Shown here: positions 2,960 through 23,257 of the stretch, one piece after another
Layout of the letters: each line of letters opens with the position of its first letter
How positions within the stretch are numbered: the first letter of the stretch is position 1
From: a virus
Length of the DNA: 37,032 nucleotides
Virus record (IMG/VR): IMGVR_UViG_3300042691_018974
Span: 1-37,032 of that record
Strand: one strand, 5' to 3'
Translations under genes and position numbers: made by a program
The notes under the pieces: generated by a model
Seen by the model: the letters and a program-made list of their open reading frames with translations, nothing else
Database searches by the model: none
What the model was told of the DNA's origin: nothing

Positions 2960-4201
2960 ATGGCTGGTCCTTTTGTTGTCGATGCATACTCGACCGTTGT
3001 CGGCGCGTTGACACAGGTAATAATACGCATCAAGGGCGACGCCGATGTTGCGAAGTTTCGCGGACTAGCCAACCTGCAAGGAATTAGGCATACCCGTTTC
3101 CAGCCTAGTGGTGCCCGCGTTGGTCCGACTGTGGCTGATCCTGTATTGTCATCCATTGGGGAATCGCAGTACGAAATTCGCGCAATGGGCGCTGTTCGTG
3201 GGCCAGACTACGCTCTTTCGACTCCGAATACGGAAATGAGTCGGAGACGGTACACTGGATACACCGGATCGGCCCCAGATCCTTTGGTGCCGACATTCGA
3301 TCAGTTGTGGTCGCAGGTGGACGACTACGTCGCCGGCAAATCCTCGTACCCGATACATCCGACAATAGCGGAGGTTAATATCACGGTCGATGACTGGTTT
3401 TACGGGCGCGGTTCGGGCGACTGGGCCATCGAGGTCGGCCCGGCCAGTTATCCAGCGGCGATGGCCTCCCCTATATTTGCGACCAGCCCCGTGTTGACGA
3501 GCGATAGTTGGGTTCCAATCATGCGCACGTTTACGGCTTCAGATACATTCTTTACCCGTGGCCCCTATGGAAATAGGAGCTTTCTATTCAATGTAACAGT
3601 GTTTTTTGGCAAAGAACTGTACTGGATGCACGGGGATGATACATCCGTCGCTTTGTTGCGACGGAGCGGAATCGACGGGTCCGGTGATTATAGATTATTC
3701 TGCGCCGGGTACGGACTGCCGCCAGCCGTCGAAATAGCGCACACAAGCAGCGCCGTCCACCTGAACGCGGATACTCCTACCCGCACGCTAAAGCTATATC
3801 TGGCGCAGGAAGTCGTGACACTGGCGAGCGGGTCATGGGGATTTGTTTTACAAACGTCGGCTCTACTAGACAGCTATGTAGTTCCGGCAATTTACACGGT
3901 GCCGAATGGCGGCAGTACAACGCACTCCATTACGGCATGGGCCGGCGTTAAGTCATGCACCGCGACACTCGGTACGCTCGACCCTCTAGCGGCCGGATAC
4001 TTCTATATTGTGACATGCACGAACGAAAGCGGTACCGTTATCGAAACGGCCGCGACGGGAAGATTCGAGGATGGGTCTGCTAAAACCTTTATCTGGCACA
4101 AGATTCCGCCGTCAATCGCCGCGAAATACTCGCCGGCAACTGGCGACGGCGAGGCGCACGGGTACTTGGTCGGTTTGCGCATCCCGCTAGACACGCACTA
4201 G
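2960..4201 (+). CDS. Beta-rich tail-module protein, unknown function
   Basis: 413 residues, no signal peptide or membrane span. It is rich in Thr, Ser, Tyr and Gly, typical of phage tail-tip or receptor-binding proteins. Its DNA is visibly less GC-rich than its neighbours (for example around 3540-3720), which suggests separate acquisition, as is common for host-range proteins. It is the last gene before the late/early junction, directly followed by a perfect inverted repeat at 4208-4225. The receptor-binding role is an inference from position and composition. Confidence 0.7.
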   Translation: MAGPFVVDAYSTVVGALTQVIIRIKGDADVAKFRGLANLQGIRHTRFQPSGARVGPTVADPVLSSIGESQYEIRAMGAVRGPDYALSTPNTEMSRRRYTGYTGSAPDPLVPTFDQLWSQVDDYVAGKSSYPIHPTIAEVNITVDDWFYGRGSGDWAIEVGPASYPAAMASPIFATSPVLTSDSWVPIMRTFTASDTFFTRGPYGNRSFLFNVTVFFGKELYWMHGDDTSVALLRRSGIDGSGDYRLFCAGYGLPPAVEIAHTSSAVHLNADTPTRTLKLYLAQEVVTLASGSWGFVLQTSALLDSYVVPAIYTVPNGGSTTHSITAWAGVKSCTATLGTLDPLAAGYFYIVTCTNESGTVIETAATGRFEDGSAKTFIWHKIPPSIAAKYSPATGDGEAHGYLVGLRIPLDTH

Positions 4202-4207
4202 CTTGCC

Positions 4208-4225
4208 AGCGTGCGCTCGCACGCT
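4208..4225. other. Perfect inverted repeat after the tail operon
   Basis: AGCGTGCG-CT-CGCACGCT, two perfect 8-base arms, begins 6 bases after the stop of the last tail gene. As RNA it would fold with about 7 pairs and a 4-base loop. No T-run follows, so it is not a classical intrinsic terminator. It could slow or end late transcription or be a protein-binding site. A similar GCGTGCG/CGCACGC pair occurs at 28814-28832. Confidence 0.5.
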
Positions 4226-4237
4226 ACCCTGTCGCCC

Positions 4238-4366
4238 ATGACCGCCGCCGCCGACCTCGCCCGCATGCGCTGGGCCAAGACCCCAACAGCAGACCGCACG
4301 GCCGGCGCCCGGAAGGCGGCTCTGGCCCGGTGGGCAAAAGCGCGCGGGAAATCCAAGGGAAAATAG
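4238..4366 (+). CDS. Very small basic phage protein
   Basis: 42 residues, starting MTAAADLARMRWAKT and ending in a Lys/Arg-rich tail (ARGKSKGK). The two WAK-type motifs and the ARxRW...AALARW pattern resemble small basic proteins common in phage genomes, whose function is not known to me. It sits alone between the late operon and the TTGACA promoter candidate. Confidence 0.5.
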   Translation: MTAAADLARMRWAKTPTADRTAGARKAALARWAKARGKSKGK

Positions 4367-4370
4367 GCTA

Positions 4371-4397
4371 TTGACATTCGTGCGCACGCATTAGAGT
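4371..4397 (+). promoter_or_regulatory. Candidate early promoter
   Basis: A perfect -35 TTGACA at 4371-4376 is followed after 15 bases by TAGAGT (4392-4397), a 4/6 match to TATAAT. The spacing is short of the ideal 17. The spacer holds a perfect palindrome, CGTGCGCACG (4379-4388), which could be an operator. It lies upstream of the run of early genes and downstream of the last late gene, where a phage early promoter is expected. The -10 assignment is weak. Confidence 0.45.
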
Positions 4398-4448
4398 AGC
4401 GCCATCAGCCGAGGCAAACAGCCCGGCCCAGCCTTGAAAGGGCAAGCC

Positions 4449-4601
4449 ATGACGACCATCAAATACGGCCCGCACGCTGGCCAGATCATCAAGGGCAACT
4501 ACAAGGTCAGCACCGACCGTAATGGCCGCATGATTGCCCATCGCTGGGCGCGCCTCGCCAACCGTTGGATCCGCTGCGACATCACCGAGGCCCTTGCCTA
4601 A
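4449..4601 (+). CDS. Small early protein, unknown function
   Basis: 50 residues with a basic centre (TDRNGRMIAHRWARLANRWIRC). ATG at 4449 follows an AAAGGG-type Shine-Dalgarno at about 4437-4442. It is the first gene behind the candidate early promoter. Not a family I recognise. The Trp/Arg-rich core would suit nucleic-acid or protein binding, but that is only an impression. Confidence 0.45.
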   Translation: MTTIKYGPHAGQIIKGNYKVSTDRNGRMIAHRWARLANRWIRCDITEALA

Positions 4602-9973: not shown

Positions 9974-10090
9974 ATGACACCACAACCCATCACGACACCC
10001 GACAACGGAACCGGCGGCGCGAGGCTTTGCGCGTTTGCCGGATGCGACCCGTTGGCGGGGGTCGTGATTGGCTGGAGTGATTATGTCTGA
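9974..10090 (+). CDS. Possible small ORF overlapping the helicase start
   Basis: 38 residues (MTPQPITTPDNGTGG...WSDYV), overlapping the helicase start by 8 bases. It is the only reasonable ORF in the 174-base gap 9909-10082. The composition is compatible with coding but it lacks a clear Shine-Dalgarno. The rest of the gap (9909-9973) shows nothing I can name. Confidence 0.3.
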   Translation: MTPQPITTPDNGTGGARLCAFAGCDPLAGVVIGWSDYV

Positions 10091-12311
10091 CTACCGTGAA
10101 ATCATCGCATCCAAGGAATGGAAGGCCCCGGCGTGCGGGTTCGAGCCGACCGTTATGCCATCCATGCTGTTCGACTGGCAACGCGCCGTCGTCCGATGGG
10201 CGTGCCTCAAGGGTCGCGCCGCGCTGTTCGAGGACTGCGGACTCGGCAAGACCATGCAGCAGATCGCATGGGCTGAGAACGTGCGCGTCCATACGGGCAA
10301 GTCCGTGCTGATTTTGTGTCCGCTGGCCGTGGCCGAGCAGACCGTCAGGGAGGGCGGCAAGCTTGGCATCCACGTGATGCACATCCGCGAGGCCGAGCAG
10401 ATCGTCCCCGGCGTCCCCGTCATCTACATCACCAACTACGACCGACTGGAGCGGTTCCTGGGCGAGTCCTGGGGAGGCGTGGTCCTGGATGAATCGTCCA
10501 TCCTCAAGAGCTACAGCGGCAGCACGCGGACGATGATCATCGACGCATTCCAGCATACGAGCTACAAGCTGGCATGCACAGCGACGCCGGCTCCCAATGA
10601 CCACACCGAGCTAGGCAACCATGCAGAGTTCCTGGGAATCATGACCAGGACCGAAATGTTGGCATCGTTCTTTATGCATGACGGCGGCGAGACTGCTGTG
10701 TGGCGGCTCAAGGGACACGCTCAGCGCGACTTCTGGCAATGGTGCGCCGGCTGGGCGATCTTGATGCGGACCCCGGCGGATATTGGGTTCCGGTCGGAAG
10801 GCTACGTCCTGCCGCCGCTCAAGATCATCAAGCACATGGTCGCGTCTGGAATAGAGGCGACAGATACCATATTTGCCATGCCGGCCCGGTCGCTGGATGA
10901 CCAGCGGAAGGCGCGGCGGATTACCATGCCGCACCGCGTGGCCAAGGTCGCGTCGCTGGCCGGGTGCGATGAGTCGCCGTGGCTGGTCTGGTGCGAGATG
11001 AATGACGAGGGCGACTTGCTGGCCGAGTCCATTCCCGGCGCAGTCCAGGTCGCCGGATCGGATGACGAGCATGACAAGTGCAGCCGCATGCTCGGATTCG
11101 CGGACGGCGAGCATCGCGTCATGGTCACGAAACCCAAGCTTGCCGGGTTCGGCTTGAATTGGCAACACTGCAACCGCATGGCATTCGTCGGCCTGTCGCA
11201 CAGCTACGAGCAGTTCTATCAGGCCGTTCGCCGTTGCTGGCGGTTCGGCCAGACGCAGCCGGTCGAGGTCCACGTCATTACGACGGACGTGGAAAGTGAA
11301 GTCTTATTGAACATCGAACGCAAACAAGCAGAGGCCGACGCAATGACGGCCGGAATGGTTGAACACATGAGCGAGATCACCAAGAGCGAGATTGCCGGGA
11401 CCGAACGGCAGACAGACACCTATCGCACGGGGTCGGCACCAGGCGAGACTTTCAACGCTTACCTGGGCGATTGCGTGGAGGGCATCAGGAACATGCCGGA
11501 CAACAGCGTCCATTACTCCATATTTTCTCCGCCGTTCGCCAGTCTGTACACCTACAGCAACAGCCCATTCGACATGGGCAACTGCAAGGATCACGCAGAG
11601 TTCTTCCGTCAGTTCGTCTATCTGACCCGCGAGTTGCACCGCGTCATCATGCCGGGCCGGCTGGTGTCGTTCCACTGCATGAACCTGCCCACATCCAAGG
11701 AACGGGATGGATTCATCGGCATAACGGACTTCCGAGGCGTGCTGATCAAGGCGTTTCAAGAGGCTGGGTGGATCTTCCATAGCGAGGTATGTATCTGGAA
11801 GGACCCGGTCACGGCGATGCAGCGCACCAAGGCGCTGGGGTTGCTGCACAAGACGATTCGCAAGGACAGCAGCATGAGCCGCCAGGGCATCGCTGACTAT
11901 CTAGTGACTATGCGCAAGCCGGGCGAGAACACCGAGCGCATTCCGCATGGCGATGACTTGCCGGTGAGCCTCTGGCAGCGATACGCCAGCCCGGTCTGGA
12001 TGGACATTCAGCCTAACGACACTCTGCAAAAGGAATCGGCGCGCGAGGATGACGATGAGCGCCACATTTGCCCGTTGCAGCTCGGCGTCATCGAGCGGGC
12101 CATTCATCTGTGGAGCAATCGCAATGACTTGGTGCTGTCGCCGTTCATGGGCATCGGCAGCGAGGGGTATCAGGCCATTAAGATGGGCCGGCGCTTTGTC
12201 GGCTACGAACTCAAGTTGTCGTACTTCAAGCAGGCTGTGGCCAACCTGACCGCCGCTGAGCAGTCGATCCGCGCGCAACAGACCATATTCGACGCGGACG
12301 CCGTCGCATGA
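10083..12311 (+). CDS. SNF2-type helicase fused to a beta-class DNA methyltransferase
   Basis: 742 residues from the ATG at 10083, with GGAG 5 bases upstream; the in-frame TTG at 10068 is less likely. Residues 1-440 are a superfamily-2/SNF2-like ATPase: Walker A GLGKT (53-57), DES instead of DEAH (136-138), motif III ACTATP (164-169) and motif VI QAVRRCWRFGQ (380-390). Residues 460-742 are an amino-methyltransferase: SPPF motif IV (482-485) first, then the SAM-binding FMGIG (688-692) near the end. That is the beta-class order of N4-cytosine or N6-adenine enzymes. No nuclease motif is seen. It may modify phage DNA ahead of replication forks or during repair. Two small paralogues flank it. Confidence 0.85.
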   Translation: MSDYREIIASKEWKAPACGFEPTVMPSMLFDWQRAVVRWACLKGRAALFEDCGLGKTMQQIAWAENVRVHTGKSVLILCPLAVAEQTVREGGKLGIHVMHIREAEQIVPGVPVIYITNYDRLERFLGESWGGVVLDESSILKSYSGSTRTMIIDAFQHTSYKLACTATPAPNDHTELGNHAEFLGIMTRTEMLASFFMHDGGETAVWRLKGHAQRDFWQWCAGWAILMRTPADIGFRSEGYVLPPLKIIKHMVASGIEATDTIFAMPARSLDDQRKARRITMPHRVAKVASLAGCDESPWLVWCEMNDEGDLLAESIPGAVQVAGSDDEHDKCSRMLGFADGEHRVMVTKPKLAGFGLNWQHCNRMAFVGLSHSYEQFYQAVRRCWRFGQTQPVEVHVITTDVESEVLLNIERKQAEADAMTAGMVEHMSEITKSEIAGTERQTDTYRTGSAPGETFNAYLGDCVEGIRNMPDNSVHYSIFSPPFASLYTYSNSPFDMGNCKDHAEFFRQFVYLTRELHRVIMPGRLVSFHCMNLPTSKERDGFIGITDFRGVLIKAFQEAGWIFHSEVCIWKDPVTAMQRTKALGLLHKTIRKDSSMSRQGIADYLVTMRKPGENTERIPHGDDLPVSLWQRYASPVWMDIQPNDTLQKESAREDDDERHICPLQLGVIERAIHLWSNRNDLVLSPFMGIGSEGYQAIKMGRRFVGYELKLSYFKQAVANLTAAEQSIRAQQTIFDADAVA

Positions 12312-14269: not shown

Positions 14270-14676
14270 CCGCCCATATCGACAAGCCTCTGCCGCACGC
14301 CTACGCTTATTCACATGTCGAATCCGAGCGACTGCGCCAGCAGACCAGGGCTAATGCCGAAGCGATTAAGGCATGCGAGGCAGAGGAACGGCTGGCGACT
14401 GCGCTGCGACGTGGCGACGATGCGTTGAGCGAGGTGCATGACCTGTGCGAACGTCTCGAAAAACTGCAAGCGGTTGCCGACATTGCCCAGGGCATCCTGT
14501 TGAGCGGGGACTTGCATTGGCACACGCCACAGGCCGAAAGGACAGCCAGGGAACGTGATTTACGCGATGCGCTGTCTCGTCTGCCCAACGCCAAAGATGA
14601 CCGGGCCGCCGTCGGCGGCTCGGTGTCTAGCGCATTGTTAGGCGCGGACGTTCTACCGGAGCAATCCAATGGATGA
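14266..14676 (+). CDS. Coiled-coil accessory protein ending in palindrome 1
   Basis: 136 residues from the ATG at 14266. Residues 20-75 are strongly helical and heptad-like (ERLRQQTRANAEAIKACEAEERLATALRR), typical of small phage coiled-coil proteins. The C-terminal 34 residues (NAKDDRAAVGGSVSSALLGAD...) are encoded by the attC-like element and resemble the C-termini of three other unrelated proteins here. That tail is therefore probably a by-product of the DNA element and not part of the original fold. Confidence 0.55.
   Translation: MTAHIDKPLPHAYAYSHVESERLRQQTRANAEAIKACEAEERLATALRRGDDALSEVHDLCERLEKLQAVADIAQGILLSGDLHWHTPQAERTARERDLRDALSRLPNAKDDRAAVGGSVSSALLGADVLPEQSNG
14583..14643. repeat. 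attC-like palindrome 1
   Basis: 61 bases bounded by GCCCAAC (RYYYAAC) and GTTAGGC (GTTRRRY). Inside, a GCCAAA spacer precedes arms that meet at GCCGCC/GGCGGC around a 3-base tip. The right arm has an unpaired T after GGCGGC, as in all four elements. The inner arms carry some mismatches, so this is the least regular copy. The next ATG is 25 bases past its end. Confidence 0.6.
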
Positions 14677-14878
14677 ATCAATACCACTTGGCAAGGCCGA
14701 AGGAGATCGTCAGCGCGTCCTAGACGGCATACGCCGGATGCCTGCGTCAGTGTCCTACGCCTGCCCATCCTGTTCCCACAAGCTGGACATTCAAGGAATC
14801 GAACGCGGAAGCCGCGCCGTGTTCGATCTGTGGCGTCACGGATGCGGAGCACATATCACCATGAGGTTAAAGCTATGA
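14669..14878 (+). CDS. Zinc-ribbon-like small protein
   Basis: 69 residues. GGAG lies 7 bases before the ATG. It has CPSC at about 32-35 and a later single Cys in HGCGAH, with beta-forming residues between, like a small one-site zinc ribbon. First of two genes between palindromes 1 and 2. The stop overlaps the next start (CTATGA). Confidence 0.5.
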   Translation: MDESIPLGKAEGDRQRVLDGIRRMPASVSYACPSCSHKLDIQGIERGSRAVFDLWRHGCGAHITMRLKL

Positions 14879-15276
14879 ATCTGCCCTTTGAATTAATGAC
14901 CATCAACGTCGGCCCCGGCGATGACAACTATGGCCGAGATAAGCCAATCGCCTGGGGCGAATATCCGACCATCGCCAAGCACCCCAAACATCCCGACGCG
15001 CTGCGTCTGGTCAGGCACCCCAATGGGCCAGCCATCATCCACGGTCCGTTCCTTTGCACCGTTGGCCATTTCATCCGCGATGTTGGTGAAAAGTTAGGCC
15101 CTATCGAGGCCGGCGACTACGCGGAATGGATTGCGGGTGTCTTGGCTAGTGCCGCGCAGGACATAACCGCACCACGCCAAGCACCTAACGCCAAAGCTGA
15201 CCCGGCCGCCGTCGTCGGCGGCTCGGCGTCTAGCGACTTGTTAGGTGCGGATCATCAACCGGAGGGGAAACCATGA
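14875..15276 (+). CDS. Accessory protein ending in palindrome 2
   Basis: 133 residues from the ATG at 14875. Residues 1-100 look like one globular domain (MNLPFELMTINVGPGDDNYG...GPFLCTVGHFIRDVGEKLG), not recognised. The last 35 residues (PNAKADPAAVVGGSASSDLLGAD...) are encoded by the attC-like element and repeat the tail of the preceding cassette's coiled-coil protein. Confidence 0.5.
   Translation: MNLPFELMTINVGPGDDNYGRDKPIAWGEYPTIAKHPKHPDALRLVRHPNGPAIIHGPFLCTVGHFIRDVGEKLGPIEAGDYAEWIAGVLASAAQDITAPRQAPNAKADPAAVVGGSASSDLLGADHQPEGKP
15183..15246. repeat. attC-like palindrome 2
   Basis: 64 bases bounded by ACCTAAC and GTTAGGT; the outer pairing extends to 9 perfect bases (15181-15189 with 15240-15248). 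After the unpaired spacer GCCAAA/GACTT, the arms GCT-GAC-CCG-GCCGCCG pair with the right arm except for three single unpaired bases in the right arm. The tip is 4 bases. This pattern of box, unpaired spacer and arm with extrahelical bases is the integron attC architecture. The next ATG is 26 bases downstream behind GGAGG. Confidence 0.7.
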
Positions 15277-15752
15277 GCCTACTGCCTTGCCCATTCTGTG
15301 GCCGAGTCCCATCCGAGGAATACTACCAGCGCCGGTATGATTTCGACTTCGCAATCGAATGCGAATGCGGCGCCTGTCTGAGCCAATGCGAATGGGCCGG
15401 TGGGCCTGGCCAGGAGTCTAAAGAAAAGACCATAGAGCAGTGGAATACCAGAGCCATTCATGGATGGGTCAGTTGCGATGATCGTATGCCGCCAGATGGC
15501 CATGATTCGTATATCGTTAGTAACAAGTACGGCCAGATATACCTTGCCGACAGAGACATGAATAGGTCGGCCAAGTGGGTTTGGGTCGATGACGAAGGCA
15601 CAGAGATAGGGCTAACTTTTGGGTATCCGGTAACTCATTGGATGCCGTTACCGTCCGCACCACGCACCGCACCTAACGCCAAGACCAGCGGGCCGACCGC
15701 TGACACCGCATCCACCCCAGGCGTCGGCGGCTCCGCTGCGTCGCCTGGTTAG
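15273..15752 (+). CDS. Lar-like restriction alleviation domain fused to DUF551
   Basis: 159 residues. Residues 1-61 match the Lar family pattern: LLPCPFCG, then the CxCxxC group (C30, C32, C35), then the closing IEQWNTRA. Residues 64-130 match DUF551: GWVSCDDRMPP at the start and VTHWMPLPSAP at the end. Lar proteins in Rac-type phages alleviate type I restriction by stimulating methylation; DUF551 has no known role. The tail (NAKTSG...VGGSAASPG) is encoded by palindrome 3, and the stop TAG lies inside its GTTAGAT box. Confidence 0.75.
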   Translation: MSLLPCPFCGRVPSEEYYQRRYDFDFAIECECGACLSQCEWAGGPGQESKEKTIEQWNTRAIHGWVSCDDRMPPDGHDSYIVSNKYGQIYLADRDMNRSAKWVWVDDEGTEIGLTFGYPVTHWMPLPSAPRTAPNAKTSGPTADTASTPGVGGSAASPG

Positions 15753-15754
15753 AT
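15671..15754. repeat. attC-like palindrome 3
   Basis: 84 bases bounded by ACCTAAC and GTTAGAT. The left arm GAC-CAGCGG-GCCG pairs with the right arm, read in reverse complement as GAC-G-CAGCGG-A-GCCG, with single unpaired G and A. The tip is long (about 29 bases). The bases just before the left box (CCGCACCACGC) are shared with palindrome 2. The next ATG is 27 bases downstream. Confidence 0.7.
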
Positions 15755-15781
15755 TCCGAACTTTTACCGGAGAAAGAAACC

Positions 15782-16246
15782 ATGCACGCAACACAAATGT
15801 CGGCGCTTATCAACGCATGCAAGGATCACGACGAGGTTCGTATCGTAACCTGCGCACTGCATATTGCCGCCACGGCTGCCCGTGAGCGGAAGCAGGACGC
15901 AGCCATTGCCATCCGCCATCTGGTAGATGCACACCAGGGCCGTGAACAGGCGGAGAAAGAATATAAGAGGCAGCGGTTAGACCTGGCTGCGCGGATTCTT
16001 TCCGGGCTTGTTGCCAATCCAGGCGGGCCGTATCAGAGCAACGGGCGCACCGGCTGGAGCCTGTGCAACTGCGATGAGGCGCAGGTTGCAGGAACAGCCA
16101 TAGGGTTAGCTGACAGCCTGATGGTTGCGAATGCGGTCGCACCGATACCGCACGACGCTAAGGAATCTAACGCCAAGATCAGCCGGCCGCCGAACGAGTC
16201 CGCTGTGTCGCCGGACGTGGGCGGCTCGGCTGCATCGCCTGGTTAG
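15782..16246 (+). CDS. Accessory protein ending in palindrome 4
   Basis: 154 residues. Two helical parts: 1-65 with several Cys/His residues, and 66-115 (LAARILSGLVANPGG...AIGLADSLM), a pattern I associate with small phage accessory proteins of unknown role. The C-terminal tail (SNAKISRP...VGGSAASPG) comes from the palindrome and repeats the tail of the Lar-DUF551 protein. The stop TAG lies in the GTTAGAT box. Confidence 0.55.
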   Translation: MHATQMSALINACKDHDEVRIVTCALHIAATAARERKQDAAIAIRHLVDAHQGREQAEKEYKRQRLDLAARILSGLVANPGGPYQSNGRTGWSLCNCDEAQVAGTAIGLADSLMVANAVAPIPHDAKESNAKISRPPNESAVSPDVGGSAASPG

Positions 16247-16248
16247 AT
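16165..16248. repeat. attC-like palindrome 4, the clearest copy
   Basis: 84 bases bounded by ATCTAAC and GTTAGAT, with an 8-base perfect outer pair (16164-16171/16242-16249). An unpaired 5x5 spacer (GCCAA/GCCTG) follows. Then GAT-CAGCCG-GCCGCC pairs perfectly with the right arm apart from two single unpaired bases spaced 6 apart, as in canonical attC sites. The tip contains a nested GTCCG/CGGAC stem. The next ATG is 27 bases downstream. Confidence 0.75.
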
Positions 16249-16275
16249 TCCGAACCTTTAACGGAGAAAGAAACC

Positions 16276-16512
16276 ATGCCTAAACTCAAAAACTATATCG
16301 TCTCAGTCCTGGTGGATGCCACGGTGGTAATCAGGGTCAAGGCTAAGTCCCCTGAGGAAGCACAGCAACTTGCAGAAGAGCGAGCCTGCGTCCCCGGTCT
16401 ATGCCACTGTTGCTCTAAGAACTTGGAGCTTGGAGATATAATCCCGGCCACTGGCGAGCAGAACTTTGCATCTGAGTGCGATGATGCGGATTTTGAGGAG
16501 GACGAACCGTGA
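16276..16512 (+). CDS. Small Cys-containing accessory protein
   Basis: 78 residues. N-terminal beta-alpha unit (YIVSVLVDATVVIRVKAKSPEEAQQLAEE), then CHCC, then a very acidic C-terminus (CDDADFEEDEP). Its leader repeats the leader behind palindrome 3 almost base for base, so it was part of the same modular layout. The gene does not end in a complete palindrome. GTGA overlap with the next ORF. Confidence 0.5.
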   Translation: MPKLKNYIVSVLVDATVVIRVKAKSPEEAQQLAEERACVPGLCHCCSKNLELGDIIPATGEQNFASECDDADFEEDEP

Positions 16513-16634
16513 ACGGCAAGGAATCTAACAGGGATTTAGACAGCGCGGGGCGTACCAGAATAGACAGTGGCGGGCCTATTGAGCGGAGTCGGGACAACGG
16601 TCTGAACAACGACGAGGCTGGGAGCAACGCGTGA
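16509..16634 (+). CDS. Small ORF carrying a lone half palindrome
   Basis: 41 residues, hydrophilic and low in hydrophobic residues, so possibly not a folded protein. It contains AAGGAATCTAAC (16518-16529), identical over 12 bases to the left box region of palindrome 4, but no matching GTTAGAT follows. It looks like the remnant of a broken fifth element. Confidence 0.35.
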   Translation: MNGKESNRDLDSAGRTRIDSGGPIERSRDNGLNNDEAGSNA

Positions 16635-18898: not shown

Positions 18899-19002
18899 GC
18901 GCCATCGGTGGCGCAATCGGCGGCCGTAGTCGGTCCCCAGCAAAGGTAGCGGCGGCCCGGGCGAACGGCAAAAAGACTAAGCGCAAGAAGCCGGCCGCGT
19001 GA
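18868..19002 (+). CDS. Small basic GGRSRSPAK-type phage protein
   Basis: 44 residues from a GTG (an earlier GTG at 18847 is possible). GGRSRSPAKVAAARANGKK is a pattern seen in many tiny phage proteins near terminase or replication genes. The tail is Lys-rich. GTGA overlap with the large terminase. Confidence 0.45.
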   Translation: MDAAEAARILGAIGGAIGGRSRSPAKVAAARANGKKTKRKKPAA

Positions 19003-20822
19003 CGCTCGACGACCTCGACAGCGAGCGTGCCGATCGATGGGCGCCGCCTCCGCGCCCCCGCCCCATCCGCCAGTTCGCCCGGACGATTAGCCTCCCGGAC
19101 GGTCCGCAGCAAGGCGACCCGTGGGATCCGGCGACCGAGCCGGCACAGGACGCATGGCTGGCCGAATGGGATTCCGGCCGCTGGTCCTGGTTCCTGATGA
19201 TCGCCAGCCGCCAGCGCGGCAAGACCCTGCTGGGCATCCTGTGCGCCCTGCTGTGGTCTATCGTTGAGTTGCGCCGGTCGGTCGGCGTGATCCTGCCGAA
19301 TCTCGACAAGCTGGCGCAAAATTACGAATCGAAGTACCGGCCGGCGTTCGACAACTCCGGCTACAAGGACATCTTCCCGACCAAAGGCCCCGGCTCACGT
19401 GGCGGCCGTCCGGCGGCCATAACACTCCGCGATCCGAAGCGAGGCGGCAGCGTGCTCGGCCGCGTGTTTTTTATGGCGCTGGGAAAGGGCGCATCAGAGA
19501 CGTCGGTATCGTCTGTGTCTCCCGGCACCGTCTTGGTGGACGAGGCCGATGACGCCGAGAACGCCGGCCAACTTGCCAACGCCTGCGGGCGCATCGACGG
19601 CTGGGGCACGGAAGGTCGGGCTGTTATCGTCACCACGCTGAACCAGCGCGGCGACCGCATCGGCCACCCATCGCTGGCGTTCTACGCGGACGGCACCCGC
19701 TCGCGATGGGGCCACACATGCCCGCATTGTGGCGAGTGCAAGCCCATCGAGTTTGTCCACGTCAACCTGTCCGATCGCCGCATCGCCTGCCCGTCCTGCC
19801 ACGTGCTCTGGACGGAAGAGGAACGCCGGAGGGCCATCGCCGCCGGTCGATACCTCCACGGCACCGAGACCCCGAACCGCCCGCGCTTCCTGAGCGTGAA
19901 GCTGTGGGAGCTGGATTTTCTGCGCGGGTCCATCGACATCATCGTCGACGAGTACCGCGCCGCGCTCAAGGCAAAGGATGAAGGCGACCCGAGTCAGTGG
20001 ACGGTGTTCCAAAACAAGCGACTGTGCCTGGAGGACACGCAGAGCGACGCCGAGGTCCCCAGCACCAGCGACATGGAGCAGGCGGCCCGCGCAACGAAGT
20101 CCCCGCACCGCCGCACCGAGAAGCCCAACGGACTCGCCTGCATCACGGTCGGTGCCGACATCGGCAAGCGCGACGGCTGGCACCTGACGCTGGGCATGAA
20201 GCCGGATCTATCCTGGTACGCCCTGGATTGGGGCCACCGCCAGGCATGCGACCCGAAGGTCGAGCCGACACCAGATGATCAGCGGCAGATGCTATCCAAG
20301 CTCCGCGAGCGCATCACCCGCATCGGCCGCGCGGACGCGATGGGCGTGGACGTTGGCTACAACACCGACCTGGTGCAGAAGTGGGCCAAGGCCAACGGCT
20401 TCGCGTGCGTGCGTGGCGACTCCCGCCCGACCGGCAAGAAAGACGAGGAACGGAGCCGGACGCTCCCGAGCTGGGCTGACGCGCGCCGACAGGATGACTG
20501 CACGGTCTGGCTGTTCATCGACGGCGCCGCGGTCAAGACCGAGATCGCCAAGAGTCTCGCCCGCGCGCCCGGGTCGCCCGGAGCAGGCCATTTACCGCAG
20601 GGACAGGAGGCTGGCGACTGGCTGATCCGGCACCTGACGGCCGAGGTCTGGGATGCCAAGCACGGCGTGTGGGTCAAGCGAGCCGGCAGGGATAACCATT
20701 TGCTCGACTGCCTCGTCTACGCCTGGGCGCTGGCGATGCTCGAAATACTCAAGCCCAAAACCTACTACGGCACAACCCAAAAGGATGACCGCCATGACGA
20801 CTTTGATTCCGCCGTCTGGTAG
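18999..20822 (+). CDS. Large terminase subunit, GpA family
   Basis: 607 residues from a GTG in GTGA overlap. ATPase domain: Walker A SRQRGKT (70-76) and Walker B TVLVDEAD (177-184). A zinc site typical of GpA proteins follows: C241, C244, C264, C267 in CPHC...CPSC. The nuclease domain has Asp387 in VGADIGKRDGW, Asp451 in MGVDVGYNTD, and RDNHLLD with Asp570. The enzyme cuts concatemers and pumps DNA into proheads. The lambda-type gpW position, portal and protease downstream agree with this type. Confidence 0.93.
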   Translation: MTLDDLDSERADRWAPPPRPRPIRQFARTISLPDGPQQGDPWDPATEPAQDAWLAEWDSGRWSWFLMIASRQRGKTLLGILCALLWSIVELRRSVGVILPNLDKLAQNYESKYRPAFDNSGYKDIFPTKGPGSRGGRPAAITLRDPKRGGSVLGRVFFMALGKGASETSVSSVSPGTVLVDEADDAENAGQLANACGRIDGWGTEGRAVIVTTLNQRGDRIGHPSLAFYADGTRSRWGHTCPHCGECKPIEFVHVNLSDRRIACPSCHVLWTEEERRRAIAAGRYLHGTETPNRPRFLSVKLWELDFLRGSIDIIVDEYRAALKAKDEGDPSQWTVFQNKRLCLEDTQSDAEVPSTSDMEQAARATKSPHRRTEKPNGLACITVGADIGKRDGWHLTLGMKPDLSWYALDWGHRQACDPKVEPTPDDQRQMLSKLRERITRIGRADAMGVDVGYNTDLVQKWAKANGFACVRGDSRPTGKKDEERSRTLPSWADARRQDDCTVWLFIDGAAVKTEIAKSLARAPGSPGAGHLPQGQEAGDWLIRHLTAEVWDAKHGVWVKRAGRDNHLLDCLVYAWALAMLEILKPKTYYGTTQKDDRHDDFDSAVW

Positions 20823-21128: not shown

Positions 21129-21377
21129 ATGGCCGCCTACGACAGCTTCCAGACCGCAATGGCGGCGGCTGCGACCTATGTCGCGGCGGCCGACTACGAC
21201 AACGCTCGCCGGCAGATCATCATTGCCCGCATCTACCTGGCGCAGATCCCGAACAGCTCGGCTGACGGCACCTCGGCCCAGTGGCGCGAAGACCTCGCAT
21301 CCCTGGAAACGTCGATCAACATGGAGTCAGGCCGCACGACCAGATCTGTGACCGTCAATAGCGAGTTCTGCCAATGA
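21129..21377 (+). CDS. gpW-position head-tail joining protein (candidate)
   Basis: 82 residues from the ATG at 21129 (no strong ribosome site; the upstream frame is shadow). All helical in the first 60 residues (FQTAMAAAATYVAAADYDNARRQIIIARIYLAQIP), ending in a short beta tail (RSVTVNSEF). Size, helical pattern and place between terminase and portal match lambda gpW, which plugs the head before tail joining. Sequence identity cannot be judged by eye. The stop overlaps the portal start. Confidence 0.5.
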   Translation: MAAYDSFQTAMAAAATYVAAADYDNARRQIIIARIYLAQIPNSSADGTSAQWREDLASLETSINMESGRTTRSVTVNSEFCQ

Positions 21378-23257
21378 GCGCCTACACCGGAGGCTCGTCA
21401 GCTGGCCGATTCTTCGCGGACTGGCCGGCGATCCTCACCGACCCGAACGACGATTATTGGCTCGACGGCGCCGCCATCGCCGCCCGCTCCTGGGACCTGT
21501 GGCGGAACGACCCATACTTCCGCGCCCTCATCGAAACCATGGTAGACCTGACCATCGGCGCCGAGGGACTAACACCGAAGTCGCAGTATCAAGACGACAT
21601 CCGGCCGGAGACGACCGAGGCCGAGCAACTCACCCGCGATGCCATCGACAGCAGCTTCCGCAGCAACCTCGCCCGCACCAGGCTGGACGCCGGCGGAATC
21701 CTGACCTACCCCGAGATGTCCGAGGCCGTGTTCAGGTCCTGCAAGATCGCCGGCATGGGCTACAGCGTGCGCGTGTGGCGGCCGAATCGCCCCGACGCCA
21801 GGCAGGGTAGCTGCTGGCGCGTCATCGACCCGGCCCGCGTGTCAAATCCGAACTACGGCGCCGACACGCAGCGCATGTTCCAGGGCCACGAACTGGACGC
21901 GGACGGGCGCGAGGTCGCCATCTGGGTGCAGAAGACGCATCCGAACATCCAGCGCATCGGCCCATCGTCCGAGTGGGTGCGCGTGCCGATCTACAAAGAC
22001 GGCCTGCGCAATGTGACGATCCGCCGCAACAGCGGGCGCACCGAGGCCATCCGCACCCTTGGTGCCGGCGCCTGCGTCCTGCTTTACCTCCGCATGCTCC
22101 AGGGCACCACCGAGGCGTGGGCCATCGCCAAGCGCATTCAGGCCAGCTATGCCCTGATGATCGAGACGGAGAACCCGGCCGAGGCGGCACGCGCCGATCG
22201 CTACGGCTCGCTCCTGACCGGCAACGCGCCGACGAAGCCGGGCATGCGCTACTACCACAACCACAAGAGCGTTACCCCGCTGAATTGGAACTTCCAGGGC
22301 GCGGACTACGAGCAGTTCCGCAACCCGATCATCGAGGCCGTCTGCGCTGCCGAGGGCGTGCCGTATGAAATGGTCCTGAAGCGCATGACGAAGTCCAACA
22401 TGGCCAGCTCGCGCACGTCGCTGATGCAGGCATACCAGTACGGCCGCAAGGAGCAGAATCGCCAGGTCATGTCCACAGAACAGTATTGGGCGGAATCGGT
22501 CATCAGCGAGGACATCGCCCGCGGCGCAATCGTCGTCCGGTCGTCCAACACGGACGACATCAACCGGCTCAAGTGGAAGCGCCCGCCGCGTCCCTGGCCG
22601 GACCCGCAGAAGGAAGCCAACGCCGTTCAGGCGTGGGTGGACATGGGACACAGCTACACCAGCGCCTATGACGAAGTGGGCAAGGACTTCGAGGAAGAGG
22701 TTCGCCAACGCGCCCGCGACGAACGGCTTTTGGAGGCACAGGGGGTAACGGTCGGCGTCAAGCCCGCCACGTCCGCCCAGCCGGCGCCCGTCGTTGATCC
22801 CGAAGACGAGGAAGACGACGAATCGCAGGACGAGGTCGAACCCCAGGAAGAACAGGCCGTGAAGCCAAGCGAGATGAGGGCCATGCTGTCCGACATCGGC
22901 GCCCGCATGCAGCCGGCTCCTGTCCATTTCCACGCGGCACCGCAGCAGTTCACCATCAACACTCCGCCATCCCCGCAGGTCACGGTCAATGTTCCCGAGT
23001 CCCCGGCACCAGTAGTCCACATGCACGCGGCCGAGTCGCCCGCGCCTGTCGTTCACGTCCACGCATCAGAGCAACCGCCCGCCCAGGTGTCCGTTCAGTT
23101 CAACGCACCGCCCGCCCCTGAGCCGGTCGCGCCCGTGGTCAACGTCAACCTGCCAGCCCCCATCGTCACCGTCGACAACCAGGTCATCGTCCCAGCACGC
23201 ACCGTCAAGGCCACGCCGCAGCGCGATGGCAGCGTCCTAATGGTACCGCAGGAATAA
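21374..23257 (+). CDS. Portal protein, lambda family
   Basis: 627 residues. The first 490 follow the lambda-portal pattern: RSWDLWRNDPYFRALIETMVD early, FRSCKIAGMGYSVRVW, the linker VIDPARVSNPN, LYLRMLQGTTEAWA, and the stretch EGVPYEMVLKRMTKSNMASS near 340. The portal forms the dodecameric DNA gate. Residues from about 480 on are an unusual C-terminal extension: an acidic stretch (DPEDEEDDESQDE), then Pro/Val/His repeats (PAPVVHMHAAES, PAPVVHVHASEQ and variants) reaching the C-terminus. Confidence 0.9.
   Translation: MSAYTGGSSAGRFFADWPAILTDPNDDYWLDGAAIAARSWDLWRNDPYFRALIETMVDLTIGAEGLTPKSQYQDDIRPETTEAEQLTRDAIDSSFRSNLARTRLDAGGILTYPEMSEAVFRSCKIAGMGYSVRVWRPNRPDARQGSCWRVIDPARVSNPNYGADTQRMFQGHELDADGREVAIWVQKTHPNIQRIGPSSEWVRVPIYKDGLRNVTIRRNSGRTEAIRTLGAGACVLLYLRMLQGTTEAWAIAKRIQASYALMIETENPAEAARADRYGSLLTGNAPTKPGMRYYHNHKSVTPLNWNFQGADYEQFRNPIIEAVCAAEGVPYEMVLKRMTKSNMASSRTSLMQAYQYGRKEQNRQVMSTEQYWAESVISEDIARGAIVVRSSNTDDINRLKWKRPPRPWPDPQKEANAVQAWVDMGHSYTSAYDEVGKDFEEEVRQRARDERLLEAQGVTVGVKPATSAQPAPVVDPEDEEDDESQDEVEPQEEQAVKPSEMRAMLSDIGARMQPAPVHFHAAPQQFTINTPPSPQVTVNVPESPAPVVHMHAAESPAPVVHVHASEQPPAQVSVQFNAPPAPEPVAPVVNVNLPAPIVTVDNQVIVPARTVKATPQRDGSVLMVPQE

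Follow-up and report, generated by a model that had tools for sequence, protein, structure and literature searches.

In T4-type phages, repeated stem-loop units lie between exchangeable accessory genes. These PeSL (promoter-early-stem-loop) cassettes contain promoters and move by homologous recombination; to our knowledge, they have no attC boxes, no unpaired bases and no fixed cut site. Clusters of attC sites lacking an integrase (CALINs) have already been published from phages, e.g. P12002L and MW202573, with methyltransferase genes among the cargo, and phage attC sites were recombined by IntI1 at G|TTRRRY (the bar marks the cut) in a published assay (Qi et al. 2023, PMC9892861).

Here we describe such an array in a 37,032-base IMG/VR virus record (hereafter the window), in which all 59 genes predicted by a hexamer gene caller are located on the plus strand. 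We consider it probable (roughly 0.8) that the array is an integrase-less CALIN of four cassettes in a phage operon, with its polarity reversed and its cassettes shuffled by an integron integrase (IntI) in trans.

Identification of four attC sites

Four palindromes, E1 (14583-14643), E2 (15183-15246), E3 (15671-15754) and E4 (16165-16248), are found between small genes of the window, exactly where a preliminary description had placed attC-like elements. To search for attC sites on both strands, as that description had proposed, we prepared our own covariance model (R1) instead of using that of IntegronFinder. The training set of R1 comprised 20 sites, taken from plasmid-borne class 1 integrons and from chromosomal integrons of Planctomycetota adjoining an IntI gene; it was free of window sequence and displayed strong covariation among its paired positions. 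An unfiltered search of the window yielded precisely these four sites as strong matches (38.7-54.7 bits, E 2.5e-13 to 1.2e-8), while the next-best match in the 37 kb was 14.0 bits. All four matches were on the minus strand, namely 38.7 bits for E1 (E 1.2e-8), 51.0 for E2 (E 3e-12), 46.4 for E3 (E 6.6e-11) and 54.7 for E4 (E 2.5e-13), and the plus-strand scores of the same sites were 9-14 bits (9.4, 13.8, 10.8 and 12.5, respectively). In known-integron loci, R1 assigns scores of about 22 to 70 bits to attC sites that were not used in training. No Rfam family was matched at gathering thresholds.

The structural features agree with the model. RYYYAAC and GTTRRRY boxes (R''/R') are present in all four sites, albeit the outer stem of E1 (left box GCCCAAC, right box GTTAGGC) contains one imperfect pair. 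In each site, the inner arms are paired, the spacer in the centre is unpaired and one arm bears single extrahelical bases. As in class 1 sites, the stems follow the pattern of 3 bp, bulge, 6 bp and bulge, and the spacers measure 5-6 nt; E1 is mismatched in this respect, its inner stem being degraded. Overall, the sites resemble attC of Planctomycetota integrons. Folding, which the preliminary description had also suggested, separated two of the palindromes from shuffled sequences (z -4.7 to -4.8; -4.8 for both E2 and E4), and the other two were unremarkable by free energy alone. The four palindromes are securely identified as real attC sites, of which the outermost, E1, is the weakest.

Replication-type genes are encoded to the left of the array, and the genes for terminase (18999-20822) and portal (21374-23257) to its right. 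Neither intI nor any other integrase gene was detected by a PF00589 search in the record, which may be incomplete. With four attC sites within 1.7 kb, the window carries a CALIN between replication and packaging genes, as initially described, and not a complete integron with intI and attI beside the array. We found no relative of the window phage by blastn, by tblastn with TerL or by a TerL scan of viral contigs. A single genome scan returned three matches, all of which were due to chance, and we name no host. Elsewhere in the window, a single protein encoded at 10068-12311 combines helicase and DNA methyltransferase parts. Two viral contigs with reversed attC arrays, L119 and L080, are similar to the window in this stretch only.

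Polarity of the array and its cassettes

The first arm of class 1 attC sites comprises 3 bp, an unpaired base, 6 bp and another unpaired base, and the window sites match this arrangement on the minus strand only. When read on the plus strand, their single unpaired bases are on the 3' arm, whereas those of canonical attC are on the 5' arm. As all four attC sites are on the minus strand and all genes of the window on the plus strand, array and genes have opposite directions, unlike the same-direction layout of bacterial-type arrays. The preliminary description was thus right in assigning one orientation to the four sites, but both the R1 matches and the arm bearing the unpaired bases indicate that this orientation is opposite to that of the genes. 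The position of the cut needs to be corrected as well: it had been placed at the right-hand GTTRRRY on the plus strand, but G|TTRRRY on the minus strand corresponds to the left box, RYYYAA|C, on the plus strand. Plus-strand attC sites cut at the right box are ruled out by the R1 scores and by the exchange boundaries in other phages. Given this polarity, each cassette consists of an attC, a leader and the following gene, and for every attC the 'bottom' strand, the recombinogenic one, coincides with the coding strand.

The cut sites deduced from the attC polarity delimit four minus-strand cassettes carrying plus-strand genes. Cassette 1 (14589-15188) comprises the body of E1, a leader and two genes (14669-14878 and 14875-15276) with no family match, the latter also without a phage homologue. 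Cassette 2 (15189-15676) carries the body of E2, a leader and a gene (15273-15752) for a Lar restriction alleviation protein fused to DUF551 (PF14354, 1.1e-9; PF04448, 1.8e-10), in agreement with the anti-restriction function assigned to it earlier. Cassette 3 (15677-16170) contains the body of E3, a leader and an orphan gene (15782-16246), for which we found no Pfam, PHROG or phage match. Cassette 4 (16171-16528) includes the body of E4, a leader and a gene (16276-16512) of a phage family of unknown function (phrog_9642, 1e-9), with weak matches in Pseudomonas phages. No homologue of these cassettes was found among the collected viral loci. The array is closed on the right by a lone minus-strand core box, GGAATCTAA|C (16520-16529), which is complementary to the right box of E4 and is followed by phage sequence with no attC hairpin.

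The leaders are about 25-27 nt long, and each contains a ribosome-binding site ahead of the gene(s). The window genes are unusual in that the reading frame passes through the box into a tail encoded by attC. Translation of the attC within 14583-15276 and 15671-16279 yields C-terminal tails of the form NAK...VGGSxxS, and the leaders following the right boxes are alike in all four sites. Neighbouring cassettes of the window therefore have both ends in common. On the left, the 3' end of a flanking plus-strand phage gene (14266-14588) runs into E1 and is in frame with 16529-16634 when the array is left out. The flanks joined at the cut give an open frame in translation, ...SRLPN|RDLDSAG...SNA with a stop, although an in-frame match is fairly likely to arise by chance. 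Such a frame would fit cassettes having entered an existing operon; a search for a relative with an empty site found none.

Complementarity of cassette ends

Circularisation of cassettes followed by insertion at the cut predicts that each cassette has complementary ends, which should match better than the two boxes of a single linear attC. The window shows the end complementarity of mobile cassettes, with own-end matches of 7, 7 and 5 of 7 positions for three cassettes and, by direct reading, of 7 of 7 between the lone core and E4. The outer boxes of E3 are mismatched in the linear reading but matched perfectly in the circular one, i.e. within cassettes. In a set of 157 cassettes, almost all of which came from viral contigs other than the window, the mean match was 5.36 for own ends and 3.68 for the linear reading; own ends matched better in 122 of the cassettes and worse in 16.

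Polarity in other phages and in bacterial integrons

We collected at least 120 stretches from one pattern scan of viral contigs (loci designated by L and a number below). In the first 80 loci, R1 detected 284 attC matches (E<0.01); the other 40 yielded 79 at the stricter threshold of E<1e-4. After removal of duplicates, the genes near attC were mostly antisense in 59 contigs of the first sample (the window among them), sense in nine and tied in four; the corresponding figures for the second sample were 26, 4 and 3. Altogether, 85 of the 98 viral contigs with a clear majority were antisense and 13 sense, whereas bacterial integrons analysed with the same code were sense in 14 cases, antisense in two and tied in three (85:13 versus 2:14, Fisher p about 6e-9 if contigs are taken as independent, which is only roughly true). 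These counts rest on the hexamer gene caller, which replaced a crude longest-ORF test that proved noisy. GenBank annotations present the same picture: in MW202573, the attC are on the minus strand and the surrounding CDS on the plus strand, and in P12002L two methyltransferase genes on the minus strand flank an attC on the plus strand (22.9 bits). An antisense gene starts within 300 nt of 211 of 227 attC, at a median of 22 nt past the site, and the stop of the upstream gene falls inside the attC in 161 of 209 cases, most frequently close to where the left box begins. These results suggest that reversed attC polarity is general in phages.

The bacterial-like minority, with genes sense to attC, comprises L070, L071, L076, L089, L094, L098, L101, L102 and L108, together with L142, L148, L152 and L158; these may be host-derived or prophage arrays. 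The attC sites of TJE1 and PH101 (50 kb of 132 kb covered for the latter) were recovered neither by R1 nor by the pattern scanner, which is less sensitive than the covariance model and served for support only. A viral scan with a pattern specific to the window gave one true site (L005, confirmed by R1), the remaining matches being chance on inspection.

Cassette exchange in related phages

Exchange exactly at the attC cut, which the preliminary description had proposed to look for, was seen in other phages that carry such arrays. L065, L104, L131 and L135 belong to one phage family with backbone blocks 78-100% identical and arrays that differ, and several of their array junctions fall at YYAA|C. 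L065, L131 and L104 differ by cassettes at this position; for instance, at 4013 of L065 and 626 of L131, the upstream genes differ, whereas the attC and the downstream gene are 96% identical. L119 and L130 have exactly one cassette in common, bounded by AACG|TTAGCC and TCGATCG|TTAGGC. Among 172 alignment ends from contig pairs, 12 lay no more than 7.5 nt from the canonical cut in each partner (0.055 expected) and one at the mirror cut. Some gene junctions in related phages are away from attC, indicating that other recombination also acts. In L065 (about 4533-4560) and L104 (about 2980-3008), we noticed genes that end in the box CCTAACGTAGAAAATAAAGG with no accompanying hairpin. These ends may represent attC sites whose hairpin was deleted between short AACG repeats.

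The genes between real attC-derived repeats could instead be swapped by the phage's own homologous recombination, with no role for IntI. The window encodes a RecE-like exonuclease, which could recombine repeats, most attC-bearing viral contigs are without IntI, and the breakpoints away from attC would also fit. Nevertheless, we regard this alternative as unlikely: it is argued against by breakpoints lying within a few nucleotides of the canonical cut and not of the mirror box (12 versus 1), by the unrelated attC bodies on the far side of the L119/L130 junction and by the own-end matching of cassettes. Site-specific exchange of cassettes by IntI explains these observations better, and we infer both exchange in the window phage itself and IntI as its agent.

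Cassette cargo and integrases

The phage attC cassettes are enriched for anti-defence functions. Among 95 viral cassette proteins searched against Pfam, 14 matches involved DNA methyltransferase families, and Mom, Tad3, Acb2/Tad1 and Lar were matched once each, so that anti-defence-type cargo amounts to 18 of 95 if every match falls on a different protein. Length-matched control genes of the same loci gave three matches among the best 25 of 39 families, two to methyltransferases and one Tad2-like. The enrichment has a Fisher p of 0.0008, or 0.007 if two more control matches were hidden. One C5-cytosine methyltransferase gene recurs: it lies between two attC sites in both L080 (2116-2862) and L127 (1916-2971), and DNA similarity to it is seen in L107 and L120.

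Of 50 attC-bearing viral contigs, 21 carry a recognisable TerL of one family, and IntI was found full-length in two and as a fragment in one. Beside their attC sites, L127 (IMG/VR 3300048583_000185) encodes a full-length integron integrase at 3377-4408 (417 bits) and L099 (IMG/VR 3300031977_003277) one at 1349-2365 (437 bits). Each has an apparent second, phage-type integrase nearby. In L127, as far as roles can be read from translations, IntI adjoins a reversed array and phage-type genes including an apparent second integrase. L127 and L099 apparently carry phage-encoded integrons; for most phage attC arrays, the integrase has to be supplied in trans.

Proposed mechanism

We propose that each cassette is composed of an attC, a short leader with a ribosome-binding site and a gene, and extends to RYYYAA of the next box. 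IntI provided in trans, from the host or from a phage or prophage encoding it, would fold the coding strand of attC and cut it at G|TTRRRY read on the minus strand, and small accessory genes would thereby be added, removed or swapped within and between phages. As for the reversal, the recombinogenic strand would possibly be single-stranded more often, through transcription or lagging-strand replication. In Vibrio cholerae, when the chromosomal integron is inverted, its recombinogenic strand becomes the lagging-strand template and excision increases (PMC11023631). By analogy with this inverted integron, it is attractive to speculate that the polarity of phage attC may serve high exchange.

Alternatively, the array could be a fossil, i.e. 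a piece of a bacterial integron array which was acquired once from a host and is now inert. The weakness of E1 relative to the other sites, the lack of an integrase and the likeness to Planctomycetota attC are all compatible with such an origin. This alternative seems slightly less probable even than homologous recombination, as the gene polarity is opposite to that of bacterial arrays, one cassette carries a member of a phage gene family and another a phage-type Lar and DUF551 protein, three of the four sites score within the genuine bacterial range, and comparable arrays in other phages are dynamic. That the hairpins act as RNA (terminators, processing or translation coupling) and are merely attC-like is highly improbable. 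Within a single operon, the sites do separate the genes and precede each start codon by about 25 nt, and in the window they are translated as C-terminal tails, which places them under coding constraint. However, the full set of attC features fits a bacterial attC model with strong strand preference, own-end complementarity and exchange at the cut are unexpected of RNA elements, and some such arrays adjoin IntI.

Integron cassettes moved by IntI thus remain our preferred explanation. Beyond the window, we lean towards the idea that phages maintain their own widespread, polarity-reversed branch of integron cassettes as a counterpart of bacterial arrays, in which attC is 5' of the gene, the cargo is rich in anti-defence functions, and IntI acts in trans or is sometimes encoded by the phage. 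Phage accessory genes, above all those for anti-defence, turn over rapidly by mostly unknown routes. If phages use reversed integron cassettes as a currency of exchange, there would be a precise route, open to testing, for which the kind of enzyme and the cut site are known. Integrons would then be linked to the phage-host arms race, and the intervals between phage attC sites could be searched for new anti-defence genes. Another question, raised by the consistent reversal and accessible to direct testing, is which strand of the phage genome is single-stranded when the integrase acts.

Comparison with known systems

The window sites and those of class 1 and sedentary chromosomal integrons are alike in having R and L boxes, an unpaired spacer, a variable tip, two single unpaired bases 6 bp apart and one polarity along the array. 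In those integrons, an integrase and attI are present and the genes are mostly sense to attC (14 of 16 loci with a majority), whereas in the window the genes run against attC and the integrase is absent. The phage CALINs of Qi et al. 2023 are, like that of the window, integrase-less attC arrays between phage accessory genes. Their paper does not discuss attC-gene polarity, exchange between related phages or broad anti-defence cargo, and we found no report of reversed polarity, phage cassette exchange or anti-defence cargo in the open-access literature, a search that left bioRxiv, supplements and most subscription journals outside. The window array is thus a phage CALIN, a known kind of element, for which reversed polarity, exchange and anti-defence cargo are apparently unreported. 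On re-check, MW202573 and one site of P12002L have the same reversed polarity as the window.
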